From Tubulanus polymorphus (taxonomy: Eukaryota > Nemertea > Palaeonemertea > Tubulaniformes > Tubulanidae), in the NCBI RefSeq assembly GCF_964204645.1, contig NC_134030.1:5640278-5704277 (forward strand): DNA of 64,000 nucleotides, written 5' to 3'. Positions 3,285 to 52,956 of the stretch are shown here, piece after piece. Position 1 is the first letter of the stretch. Every line of letters begins with the position of its first letter. Made by a program: the position numbers and the translations under genes. The notes below the pieces were generated by a model, which saw only the letters and a list, made by a program, of their open reading frames with translations, had not been told where the DNA came from and searched no databases.

Positions 3285-4237
3285 ATGAATAAAGTTGCTA
3301 TTGTTGTTCTTGTTCTCGGTAGGTAAAAGCTATCAAAGAATAACAGTTTCATGTATAAGGCTTACTTACGTATTTGAAACATACTGTATATAATATTTCA
3401 TTTTTAAGATATTCAACGTTATTACTAATTAGTAGTAGCTTAAATGAGGGGATTGATTCGTGATTTACTGCAACAACGTTTTTCTTTTTCTTCCCCACTA
3501 TTCGTGTTAGGCAAATTTTTGACTATTTAGCAATAAGTTTGAATAAGTGTCTGAACATTGTCAAATTTGATATTTCAGGGTGCTACCACCAAGCGGTGAT
3601 AGCCCAATCTTCTTCCTACGTAGGTTCCAACGGTAGCTACGGAGGATCAGATAGCTACGTTACATCTGGTAGCTATGGCGGGTCAGACAGTTATGATTCC
3701 ACTGGTAGCTACGGAGGATCAAATAGTTACGTTACATCAGGTAGCTATGGAGGATCAGACAGCTATGATACAACTGGTAGTTATGGAGGATCAGATAGCT
3801 ACGTTACATCTGGTAGCTATGGCGGGTCAGATACAGATACAGCTGGCAACTATGGAGGATCAGACAGCTACGTAAGTTCCTACGATACCACTGGTAGCTA
3901 TGGCGGATCAGATAACTACGTTACATGTGGTAGCTATGGCGGGTCAGATACAGATACAGCTGGCAGCTATGGAGGATCTGATAGCTACGTAAGTTCCTAC
4001 GATACCACTGGTAGCAATGGAGGATCTGATAGCTACGTAAGTTCCTACGATACCACTGGTAGCTATGGCGGATCAGATAACTACGTTACATCTGGTAGCT
4101 ATGGCGGGTCAGATACTGCTGGCAGCTATGGAGGTTCAGATAGCTACGTAAGTTCATACGATACAAATGATAGCTATGGAGGGTCAAATAGCTACGTTAC
4201 GAGCGGTAGCTACGGAAGATCAGCTAGCTCAGTTTAG
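3285..4237 (+). CDS. Secreted Gly/Ser/Tyr/Asp-rich tandem-repeat protein
   Basis: Two exons, 3285-3318 and 3579-4237, give 230 residues. The split is supported by GT after 3318, a TTTCAG acceptor, and an in-frame join that completes a signal peptide. The first 20 residues are MNKVAIVVLVLG followed by CYHQAVIA, hydrophobic with a likely cleavage before QSSS. The mature chain is almost entirely about 15 degenerate units of the type SYGGSDSYVTSG, alternating with SYDTTG and SDTDTAG forms. This suggests a secreted structural, mucous, adhesive or shell/cuticle matrix protein; that role is inferred from composition alone. It has no catalytic domain and essentially one Cys in the mature chain. Codons vary between units, so the repeat is not a very recent amplification. 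A polyadenylation signal AATAAA lies at 4329-4334. No known family is recognised. Confidence 0.8.
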
Positions 4238-44658: not shown

Positions 44659-46677
44659 ACAACAACAACATTTGTCATACAAGGGAAATCACGAACTGAA
44701 ATGTCGACACAGAATTTTGTCGCATTTTACGGATTCAGGTATTTCAAATAGATATATACATATATATTGTGCCAAGAAGAAGATTTATGCAGTTCACCTA
44801 ATATTGTATTAGGTAAAGTAAACTGCAAAAATCTCTGTACCGTTCCCGTTGATATGCGACAATTTGTGGGATTCGAACTCAAAAAATAAAGGCATCCTCG
44901 TCTCGCGCTCATTGTTTTATCAAAAAAGCCACCCGCTTCGAAACGCTACACAAACGAACCCTAAAATAGGTCAAACATTCGGATTCCATTGTAGATCGAA
45001 TGATATCGAGAAAGCGATCACAAATGCCTCCAGTTTATATCCTCGTCTCTATGGTGCTGGACCCAAAAAAAGACGAAAAAAAGTCCGAAAATGTTTCCTT
45101 GAGCCTGTGCACTTGTGCAGTGTAGGGTAGTTTTGACTTAATATCATTTTCGAAGGATTATCGCTATAATCATCGTCTCAACACGGATAATGTTTTCACC
45201 AAGTCAAATGGTAAAAAATAAATGAATATATGTGATAGATTTTTTAAGCAAACAAGCGAACAAGACCGGGCTTCTGTAGTAGGTCGCCTCATCGTGTCAA
45301 TACAAAGAATTTTCTTTTAACGCTCAGGCTGTATTTTATGCTGAAGGATTCAATTCAAATTCAATTATTTAACGTCTAACGAGTATGTAGGATGGATCGA
45401 TCAATGTCGGGGAGATGCATGCTGTAATCACAATCCCGTTGCTGATGATGATGTAACGGTTGACCAAATTTAAATCTAGACTAATCTAGACCAGTGGCTC
45501 CGATAGTGGAACGGGAGATGATTAGAATAGAAGTCCGACACAAGACAGGTAAAAAGCGGTCTCGTTTTTTGTATCCCTCGCGCTGAGTGGCGATTTTTTT
45601 CACAGAGTGTTTCCACCATTTTGTTCGCAGTGCGCATGCTCTGTGTAGGAAATTGAAAATTATGATCGATAGTGACACTACAGCACCTGCGCTAAAACAG
45701 TACTTCTATCTATTCATTGAGTTTCCAGAGAATGGATCTAATATTTTCCAAGTTTTCTGTTTTATAGATCTAGCCAAGTACTAACCGTCCTAACGACAAA
45801 CCCCCGAAGGTCGAAAGCGAGTGTCATTTTACTTTCAGACCATCAACCCATTTGTGCATCTAACCTACAAATAAGAATCTGATCAAATATAGGCTAATCA
45901 TTGATTCTACCGCGTTCTAAACCTTTCTAAACAGCGTTGGAGTAACGACGATTTTTTTCGAGCTATGCGGGATAAAGGAAATCATATTTTGCCTTGTCCG
46001 GTTAGTGTTTGGCATCATTCAAAAACGTATGTTACTCTTTTACTACAGAGGCATGAGCTTATTGAAAGGGATATGCGTAGTGTGATTTGGTCATGTTTGA
46101 TCAAATACAAGATTGGGTCATTGAAAATCTCTGTGAACGGAAAAACTAAATCAACATCTACATGAAATGATTTACAAACACGGCAATATTTCGGGTTTAT
46201 TTTTCTGAACACTACATGTATAACCACAACTAAAATAACGACTGTTGACATTATCGTCGGTTCAAGAACCAGGGACAGGGGTCGGGGTATGTGTATATAT
46301 AAATTTCTTTGAAAAAGATAAGAAAAAAAAACCGATAACCATCAATATTCATCTGATAAAGCGCTTATTGAACTTTCGCCGATCTTACGCAAGGTTTAGC
46401 CTACTGCATTATTCAAGCAGCTGAAAAGTATTCACTTCACATGTTATTAGAAATATCGCGATTTCGTCAACGGAATAAGTGCAGAAAAAATTACAATGGT
46501 TCAGGCAAGGCTACGTGTGTTTTTTTCGGACAATTCAAACGCCCACCAACGACAAGCAGAGGTCAAGGCTACAAGGCCATAGGTACCAACTATAGAAATA
46601 TTATCATTTGGATCGTTTATCAAATTCTGCTATCCTTATTTATGCGTAGATTTGTATTTTGTTTTCCATTTCAGAAA
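44659..46677. other. Intergenic, with possible 5' exon of the glycosyltransferase gene
   Basis: No supported gene. The glycosyltransferase frame stays open upstream from 46441, but a splice-acceptor-like TTCCATTTCAG sits at 46664-46674, so the upstream part is probably intron or leader. Confidence 0.45.
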
Positions 46678-47553
46678 ATGGCTACAGGAAATGTAAGAGG
46701 ATTTGTGATTGTTGTGGTGTGTTTGTGCGCTTATCTCGTTTTTGAACTCGTTCTCAACGTGACGTTTTCAAACCCGATGCCGATGACTCCATCTGACGAA
46801 TTTCAGGTACCGAACTATATGCATTACACGTGGTACCATCCGACCAAACTTACATGGCGCTTCCATCACATGATCAGCGTATTGAGCGCTCATCGGTTCA
46901 ACAAACCGGACAAGATATATTTCTGGTACGAGAAATACCCCGAGGGTCCGCTCTGGAATAAAACTTTGGAAATGGTTCCGAATATAGTGATGAAATATCG
47001 CAAGAAACCGACGACTGTGTTTGGTATCCCGGTGAAAGCAGCCGAACACCAAAGCGATATCGTGAGAATGGAAGCTATTTTGAAATACGGCGGTGTTTAC
47101 ACCGATTTGGACGTAGTCATCGTGAAATCGTTCGATCCGTTGCGTCTATACGATACTACTATGGGATTAGAAATGGAGTACCGTCTCTGTAACGGTATCA
47201 TCATATCTAAGGCCAACTCGTCGTTCATGAGGATGTTCTACGATTCATACAAAGACTTTAAAACCGACTTTTGGGCTTACAATTCCGTCGAGGTGCCCGC
47301 TAAACTGGCCGCCAAATACCCACATCTGCTACACGTCGAGCCAACGTCTCTTCATCGGCCAAACTGGCGGGAACTCGACTGGATTTACAAACCTGGACAA
47401 ATATATGATCTCAGCAATAATTACGCTGTCCATACGTGGTTTAGGCATTACGAAAAAGACCACACAGCGGAAGATATCAAGAAATTGAATTCGACATTAG
47501 GACGATTGTACAGAAACGCTTATTACGGAAGCATGGAAATGATTGATACTTAG
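46678..47553 (+). CDS. Type II membrane glycosyltransferase of the DXD sugar-transferase family
   Basis: One exon encodes 291 residues from the ATG at 46678, chosen for its AAAATGG context and the acceptor just before it; the frame is open 79 codons further upstream. A short cytoplasmic N-terminus is followed by a membrane anchor (about 8-27, VIVVVCLCAYLVFELVL), as in Golgi type II enzymes. The catalytic core has HQSDIVRMEAILKYGGVYTD followed by LDV (DLD at 143-145), the metal- and nucleotide-sugar-binding signature of Gly_transf_sug / alpha-1,4-glycosyltransferase-like proteins. N-glycosylation sites include NVT (27) and NKT (94). Orthologues with this fold add GlcNAc, Gal or related sugars, but the donor and acceptor cannot be told from the sequence. 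It may be one of a lineage-specific family. Confidence 0.85.
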   Translation: MATGNVRGFVIVVVCLCAYLVFELVLNVTFSNPMPMTPSDEFQVPNYMHYTWYHPTKLTWRFHHMISVLSAHRFNKPDKIYFWYEKYPEGPLWNKTLEMVPNIVMKYRKKPTTVFGIPVKAAEHQSDIVRMEAILKYGGVYTDLDVVIVKSFDPLRLYDTTMGLEMEYRLCNGIIISKANSSFMRMFYDSYKDFKTDFWAYNSVEVPAKLAAKYPHLLHVEPTSLHRPNWRELDWIYKPGQIYDLSNNYAVHTWFRHYEKDHTAEDIKKLNSTLGRLYRNAYYGSMEMIDT

Positions 47554-52083: not shown

Positions 52084-52956
52084 CTTAAGTATGGTGGCTG
52101 ATAAGGGCCATAGCGTAAAATTCCTGGTATGTAAATGAGGGCGCCAGAACGCCAGAACGCCAAAACGAAAAAAAAACGTCCAATTTTCTCTAAAAGTTCG
52201 TTTTGGCGCGCCAAAACAAAGAAAATTCCGTTTTGGCGCCCCCACCAAAACAACGAAAAACGTCCAATTTTCTCTGAAAGTTCGTTTTGGCGCGCCAAAA
52301 CGGAGAAAATTCCGTTTTGGCGCCCCCGCCAAAACAACGAAAAACGTCGAAATTTCTCTAAAAGTTCGTTTTGGCGCGCCAAAACAACGAATATTCCGTT
52401 TTGGCGCCCCCGCCAAAACGAACTTTCATTTTCACAAAGAAAAGTTCGTTTTGGCGCGGTTATTTCCATTTTGGCGCCCCCGCCAAAACAAGCATTCAAC
52501 CACAGTAAAATTATTTTTCAATTTGGCGCGTTGATCTTGTGTGTAATTTGCATAAATTTGCATATATGAAAATATTTTACGTATATATGGAATTATTTTA
52601 CGTGGTTTAAAGTTCGTTTTGGCGGGGGCGCCAAAATGAAAGTTCGTTTTGGCGGGGGCGCCAAAACGTAATTTTCTCCGTTTTGGCGCGCCAAAACGAA
52701 CTTTCAGAGAAAATTGGACGTTTTTCGTTGTTTTGGCGGGGGTGCCAAAACGAAAGTTCGTTTTGGCGGGGGCGCCAAAATGAAAGTTCGTTTTGGCGCG
52801 GGCGCCAAAACGGAATTTTCTTTGTTTTGGCGCGCCAAAACGAACTTTTAGAGAAAATTGGACGTTTTTTTTCGTTTTTGCGTTCTGGCGTTCTGGCGCC
52901 CTCATTTACATACCAGGAATTTTACGCTATGGCCCTTATCAGCCACCATACTTAAG
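52084..52956. mobile_element. 873-bp fold-back element built of GGCGCGCC-palindrome modules
   Basis: The outer arms are exact inverted repeats over at least 60 bp: CTTAAGTATGGTGGCTGATA, AGGGCCATAGCGTAAAATTC, CTGGTATGTAAATGAGGGCG on the left and their complement ending at 52956. TTAA lies at both borders. Inside, both arms hold repeated modules: AACGTCCAATTTTCTCT, AAAGTTCGTTTTGGCGCGCC, AAAACNNAGAAAATTCCG, GTTTTGGCGCCCCC-CCAAAAC. About 120 bp of AT-rich spacer (52495-52610) separates the arms. It has no transposase; the long open frames on both strands result from the stop-poor modules. It is best described as a non-autonomous fold-back or TTAA-type element. Confidence 0.9.

Follow-up and report, generated by a model that had tools for sequence, protein, structure and literature searches.

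A fold-back element with tandem-palindrome arms and its probable parentage in an IS3EU DNA transposon family

Introduction

What kind of sequence is a stretch of less than 1 kb that folds back on itself and whose arms are in turn arrays of short palindromic modules, how does it spread, and what, if anything, are the modules for? An earlier note on the 64,000-nucleotide stretch of DNA analysed here (the window) had described such an element, bordered by TTAA, had pointed by way of that border to piggyBac and Kolobok, and knew of no named family with its design. As a whole, that interpretation is partly supported. The element is very probably a non-autonomous (MITE-like) fold-back derivative of an IS3EU DNA transposon that is mobilised in trans, judging by its ends, its target-site duplications and its coding relatives in the same genome. 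Fold-back elements with internally repeated arms are best known among P- and Mutator-type transposons; their presence in IS3EU suggests that this architecture has originated repeatedly.

The element and its parts

Comparison of copies sets the ends of the element (TATGG..CCATA, without assigned strand) at 52090 and 52950, a length of 861 bp. On either side lies a 6-bp target-site duplication, CTTAAG, at 52084-52089 on the left and, identical to it, at 52951-52956 on the right (neither with an assigned strand; placed by comparing the flanks of copies). The 873-bp extent given earlier does contain the fold-back, but it takes in one duplication on each side, and the TTAA of the supposed border consists of the four central letters of CTTAAG.

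The outer 75 bp of the left end (52090-52164, + strand) pair with those of the right end (52876-52950, - strand), being inverted at 74 of 75 positions and 98-100% identical in dozens of copies, and the terminal 92 bp are 99% complementary when the palindromic CTTAAG flank is included. That the element can fold back is borne out by its predicted folding energy (-617 kcal/mol for the 861 bp, as against approximately -221 kcal/mol for shuffles).

Repeat analysis divides the interior into three parts. The left arm (52158-52488, + strand) opens with a tandem array of an 84-bp unit (3.1 copies, 91% matches), followed by degenerate modules, array and modules alike being made of GGCGCGCC and GGCGCCCCCGCC palindromes. 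The right arm (52617-52875, - strand) is a 144-bp higher-order array containing 30-bp sub-units and the same palindromes as the left arm, inverted. The units of 30, 84 and 144 bp are all built on the half-site TTTTGGCG, disposed as GGCGCGCC or GGCGCCCCCGCC palindromes; counted as self-complementary modules, the element holds five of TTTTGGCGCGCCAAAA and seven palindromes of the form TTTTGGCG..CGCCAAAA, whose centre is longer. The modules are palindromic and tandemly arrayed, as had been proposed, but the two arms mirror each other only imperfectly: neither the number of modules nor their order is the same. The third part, an AT-rich core of 128 bp (52489-52616, + strand), is typical of short non-autonomous copies; its length is 128 or 140 bp in most copies, and a genome search with it gave 40 matches at 95-100% identity.

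Long open frames, also reported earlier, are present (140-157 aa) and more probably arise incidentally from modules that are poor in stops, the unit lengths of 30, 84 and 144 bp being multiples of three. No evidence for a coding function of the arm frames was found; the arms as a gene for a repetitive protein were considered and set aside, an A-run of variable length near the arm start changing the frame between copies.

Copies, target duplications and an empty site

The genome searched is a 268-Mb eukaryotic assembly of about a dozen chromosome-sized contigs (designated C1, C2 and so forth). Other copies with the same ends, which the earlier note had proposed to look for, are abundant: more than 75 separate loci came up in searches with arm, end and core, and the identity of their ends reaches 100%. 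These counts are lower bounds (an initial look gave approximately 500 candidates). Misassembly of inverted repeats does occur, but the notion that this one was created by the assembler can be dismissed for practical purposes in view of so many places with differing numbers of modules, and of forms that range from short through medium to 9-10 kb and are each bordered by a 6-bp duplication of their own.

Perfect 6-bp duplications flank 19 of 27 two-ended copies, as against none of 702 swapped pairs of flanks. Three further full-length copies (with GAAACT, ATATAT and TAAATC) and three of four further short ones (ATAAAC, CCTATG and ATATAT; the fourth matches at five of six positions) also have them, for a pooled total of 25 perfect duplications, varied in sequence, among 34 two-ended copies. 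The remaining eight of the 27 copies lack a perfect duplication, and some ends must therefore have been rearranged. The TATGG..CCATA termini are found in all two-ended copies except two, which have TGTGG or TATGA at one end. That the element is a piggyBac or Kolobok MITE inserted at TTAA, the lead suggested by the TTAA on both sides of the window copy, has a negligible probability: the duplications are 6 bp long and of varied sequence, TTAA lies within just one of the 25 perfect ones (the CTTAAG of the window copy itself), and the transposase of the coding partner, described below, is an rva_4 integrase-core protein.

An empty site is provided by a copy at C4:8205940 that is nested in the arm of another copy: when its flanks are joined minus one duplication, the uninterrupted arm is restored, with 139 bp aligned across the junction.

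Arm lengths differ widely between copies, and in any one copy the left and the right arm vary independently of each other. No sign was seen of gene conversion keeping the arms of one copy alike: left-right identity within copies is 0.917 and identity between copies 0.926. The simplest copies (226-244 bp) are near-single palindromes with zero to two intact modules, and have target duplications. Long arrays may accordingly be dispensable for transposition, although these copies might also have shrunk after insertion.

Certain copies have unusual ends. At C6:10719470, C6:10716675, C5:10339055, C1:3102461 and C2:19529425 an extra copy of the terminal 16 bp (TATGGTGGCTGATAAG) lies outside the usual end, and in three of the five a perfect 6-bp duplication is found beyond it, as if the transposase had used the added end. 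Several family ends are nested or rearranged at C5:10037519-10041359, where the outer pair keeps a perfect duplication (CATTGG); another cluster of several ends, nested or rearranged together, occupies C4:8571414-8575210.

Coding relatives

A coding partner with matching ends, also suggested earlier as something to seek, exists in the form of five copies of 8.8-9.9 kb that have the family ends and perfect 6-bp duplications. Two of these were read through (C1:4406522-4416409, 9888 bp, duplication AATATG; C1:21785906-21794736, 8831 bp, duplication TAAAAC) and for three more, on C7, C8 and C10, the check covered the two ends. Both of the copies that were read have palindrome arms of 0.75-1.4 kb in addition to the family ends, and their unique interiors differ by approximately 12 substitutions over approximately 6.9 kb and by one larger indel.

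On the + strand of the long copies, four exon pieces match successive parts of Pfam PF24764 (rva_4, integrase core). A manually assembled transposase model, spliced at GT-AG introns and provisional as to the gene start and one splice junction, matches this profile with E=1.1e-38; among NCBIfam profiles, IS481 is its best match (1.1e-6) and IS3 its second (2.4e-4). The N-terminus weakly resembles helix-turn-helix domains, and profile search found no match to a THAP domain. The transposase gene of the C1:21785906 copy has a stop at a site that is open in the C1:4406522 copy and in four others checked.

On the - strand, convergent with the transposase gene, lies a 632-aa frame that matches the HECT domain of ubiquitin ligases (7.9e-9); the TC of its ARTCAQILELP segment sits at what we take to be the position of the catalytic cysteine of HECT ligases. 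This frame is intact in six copies (C1:4411721, C1:21790484, C7:10231965, C8:3177602, C10:11518007 and C4:19506737), whose sequences are identical or nearly so (protein 100%, rounded). The near-identity of the long copies and of the six HECT frames suggests that the family is young and was active very recently. The palindrome arrays lie 5' of both genes.

The AT-rich core has no match in the 8.8 and 9.9 kb copies. Simple internal deletion of the long copies read was rejected on this account as the origin of the short form, the 128/140-bp core being missing from them.

HECT-like matches that have diverged (24-34% identity) also lie within approximately 3 kb of PF24764 matches and convergent with them (L076, L078 and L079; C3:13.006/13.009 Mb, C2:15.537/15.539 Mb and C4:18.045/18.048 Mb). 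Because such diverged convergent pairs exist on three contigs, the pairing of a PF24764-type transposase with a HECT protein seems to be older than the present family. No clean termini were found for these relatives, and no module arrays around them apart from one insertion of the fold-back family. An older, diverged fold-back copy (L077:3295-3898) lies right next to a HECT-like match of 29% identity on C8.

Assignment to IS3EU

The assignment to IS3EU is based on the element's termini, the length of its target duplications and the profile matches of the transposase. Elements of this superfamily have TA..TA termini and usually generate 6-bp duplications (PMC10045372). The ends of fungal members read TAYGG..CCRTA, and these elements contain a transposase gene together with a second gene in opposite orientation, which in TET-bearing fungal members is an alpha-kinase gene (PMC12730594). 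The present family resembles them on each count: its TATGG..CCATA ends fit the TAYGG..CCRTA pattern, its duplications are of 6 bp, elements with the same ends encode an IS481/IS3-related DDE transposase, and the second gene is convergent. It is unlike described IS3EU elements in its long tandem-palindrome arms, in having a fold-back non-autonomous form, and in having HECT as the second gene. The superfamily is already known, and it is under this name that the element, which the earlier note could place in no named family, can be filed by termini, duplication length and coding partner; searches of openly available literature gave no account of a fold-back design or a HECT passenger in IS3EU. 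As to the features of Polinton/Maverick, long elements with 6-bp duplications and a polymerase B gene, the 6-bp duplications are present and the long copies measure 9-10 kb, and there was no polymerase match among the subset of frames scanned.

The architecture has its closest parallel in Galileo and Foldback (FB) of Drosophila, members of the P superfamily, whose terminal inverted repeats are likewise long, internally tandem-repeated and variable in length (PMC3688188, PMC3573991), and which also exist in non-autonomous and coding forms. What is shared is the long tandem-repeated inverted arms and not membership: the transposase here has an integrase core, whereas that of Galileo and Foldback is of the THAP/P type. 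Tm1 (Mutator/Foldback) of root-knot nematodes and Tetris of Drosophila virilis have a fold-back architecture too, and belong to other families (PMC3169594 and PMC4079207, respectively).

Having no transposase of its own, the 861-bp element probably moves by means of that of the long copies. Transposase encoded by the 9-10 kb relatives would recognise the ends common to both forms, excise the element and reinsert it where the two strands of the target are cut with a 6-bp stagger, which would account for the 6-bp duplications. The arms would lengthen and shorten by gain and loss of the 30-, 84- and 144-bp palindromic units, through slippage or unequal exchange; such gain and loss fits arm lengths that are independent on the two sides, and arms that are no more alike within a copy than between copies. 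The presence of coding copies with identical ends in the same genome makes the function of repeated arms testable with a matched transposase.

What the palindromic modules might do

The palindromes match the binding site of the cell-cycle regulator E2F, of which the consensus is TTTSSCGC (PMC2891812). This may be a chance resemblance (they happen to match) or it may reflect function, and E2F response, transposase binding and absence of function each merit about a third of our belief. Lying 5' of both genes, the arrays may serve as E2F-like regulatory sequence or as repeated sites for the transposase.

One tentative reading takes the modules to be E2F/DP response arrays that would couple expression of the transposase and the HECT protein to S phase and, by their hundreds of copies, could titrate or rewire the host's E2F. 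There are 21 TTTSSCGC sites in the 861-bp element and two in the remaining 63 kb of the window. The looser TTTSSCGS occurs 28 times in the element as against an expected 0.14 in shuffles, and 83-133 times in the long copies. TTTTGGCGCGCCAAAA is found at 523 genomic places and a reversed control pattern at none. The half-site TTTTGGCG is the common part of otherwise different module types, and both arms are upstream of the element's two genes. There is a precedent in Brassicaceae, where MITEs have raised the number of E2F sites (Henaff et al. 2014, cited in PMC12595863). There too, short non-autonomous transposons multiply E2F-like motifs genome-wide; the carriers in these plants are hAT, PIF/Harbinger and MULE MITEs together with Helitrons, with E2Fa binding reported, whereas the present case is a sequence match. 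Against an E2F function it must be said that the likeness was spotted after the fact and that no arrays belong to the diverged relatives. Moreover, the GGCGCGCC unit is approximately 98% conserved throughout, core and spacer equally, so that no selection on the palindrome core is visible in this comparison of copies too young to separate the hypotheses.

An equally tentative proposal is that the modules are repeated sites for the element's own transposase, which would raise its avidity for the ends, as has been proposed for Galileo, whose long terminal inverted repeats have multiple THAP-domain binding sites within their tandem repeats (PMC3688188). Palindromes would be apt targets for a DNA-binding domain that acts as a dimer, and the helix-turn-helix resemblance of the transposase N-terminus, weak as it is, points the same way. 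Copies of 227-244 bp with perfect duplications and no more than one intact module argue against such sites, unless these copies shrank after insertion.

Somewhat more doubtful is that the modules have no function, and are satellite-like expansions generated by replication slippage at palindromes and hitch-hiking on transposition. The wide and side-independent variation in arm length is consistent with such expansion, as are the simplest copies, each a lone palindrome that has a single module at its apex. On the other hand, in both coding copies that were read each side still has a long array, and the CpG-rich cores have not decayed (CpG observed/expected is 1.3-1.9 in array-bearing copies), although the copies are young.

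To return to E2F, the most far-reaching form of that reading would be a two-gene IS3EU transposon with terminal inverted repeats that are E2F response arrays, its transposase and HECT genes turned on in S phase and its fold-back derivatives spreading hundreds of E2F sites, thereby tapping or titrating the cell-cycle network; we regard this combination as unlikely. The HECT passenger and the E2F-like arrays offer two concrete starting points for understanding the element's relations with its host cell.

Surroundings in the window

The nearest recognised gene to the element is a single-exon glycosyltransferase-like gene at 46441-47553 (Pfam Gly_transf_sug, 4.2e-10). Near the other end of the window, at 3464-4237, an open frame contains a tandem repeat of the GSYGGSDSYVTS type, in an array of 36-, 48- and 117-bp units.
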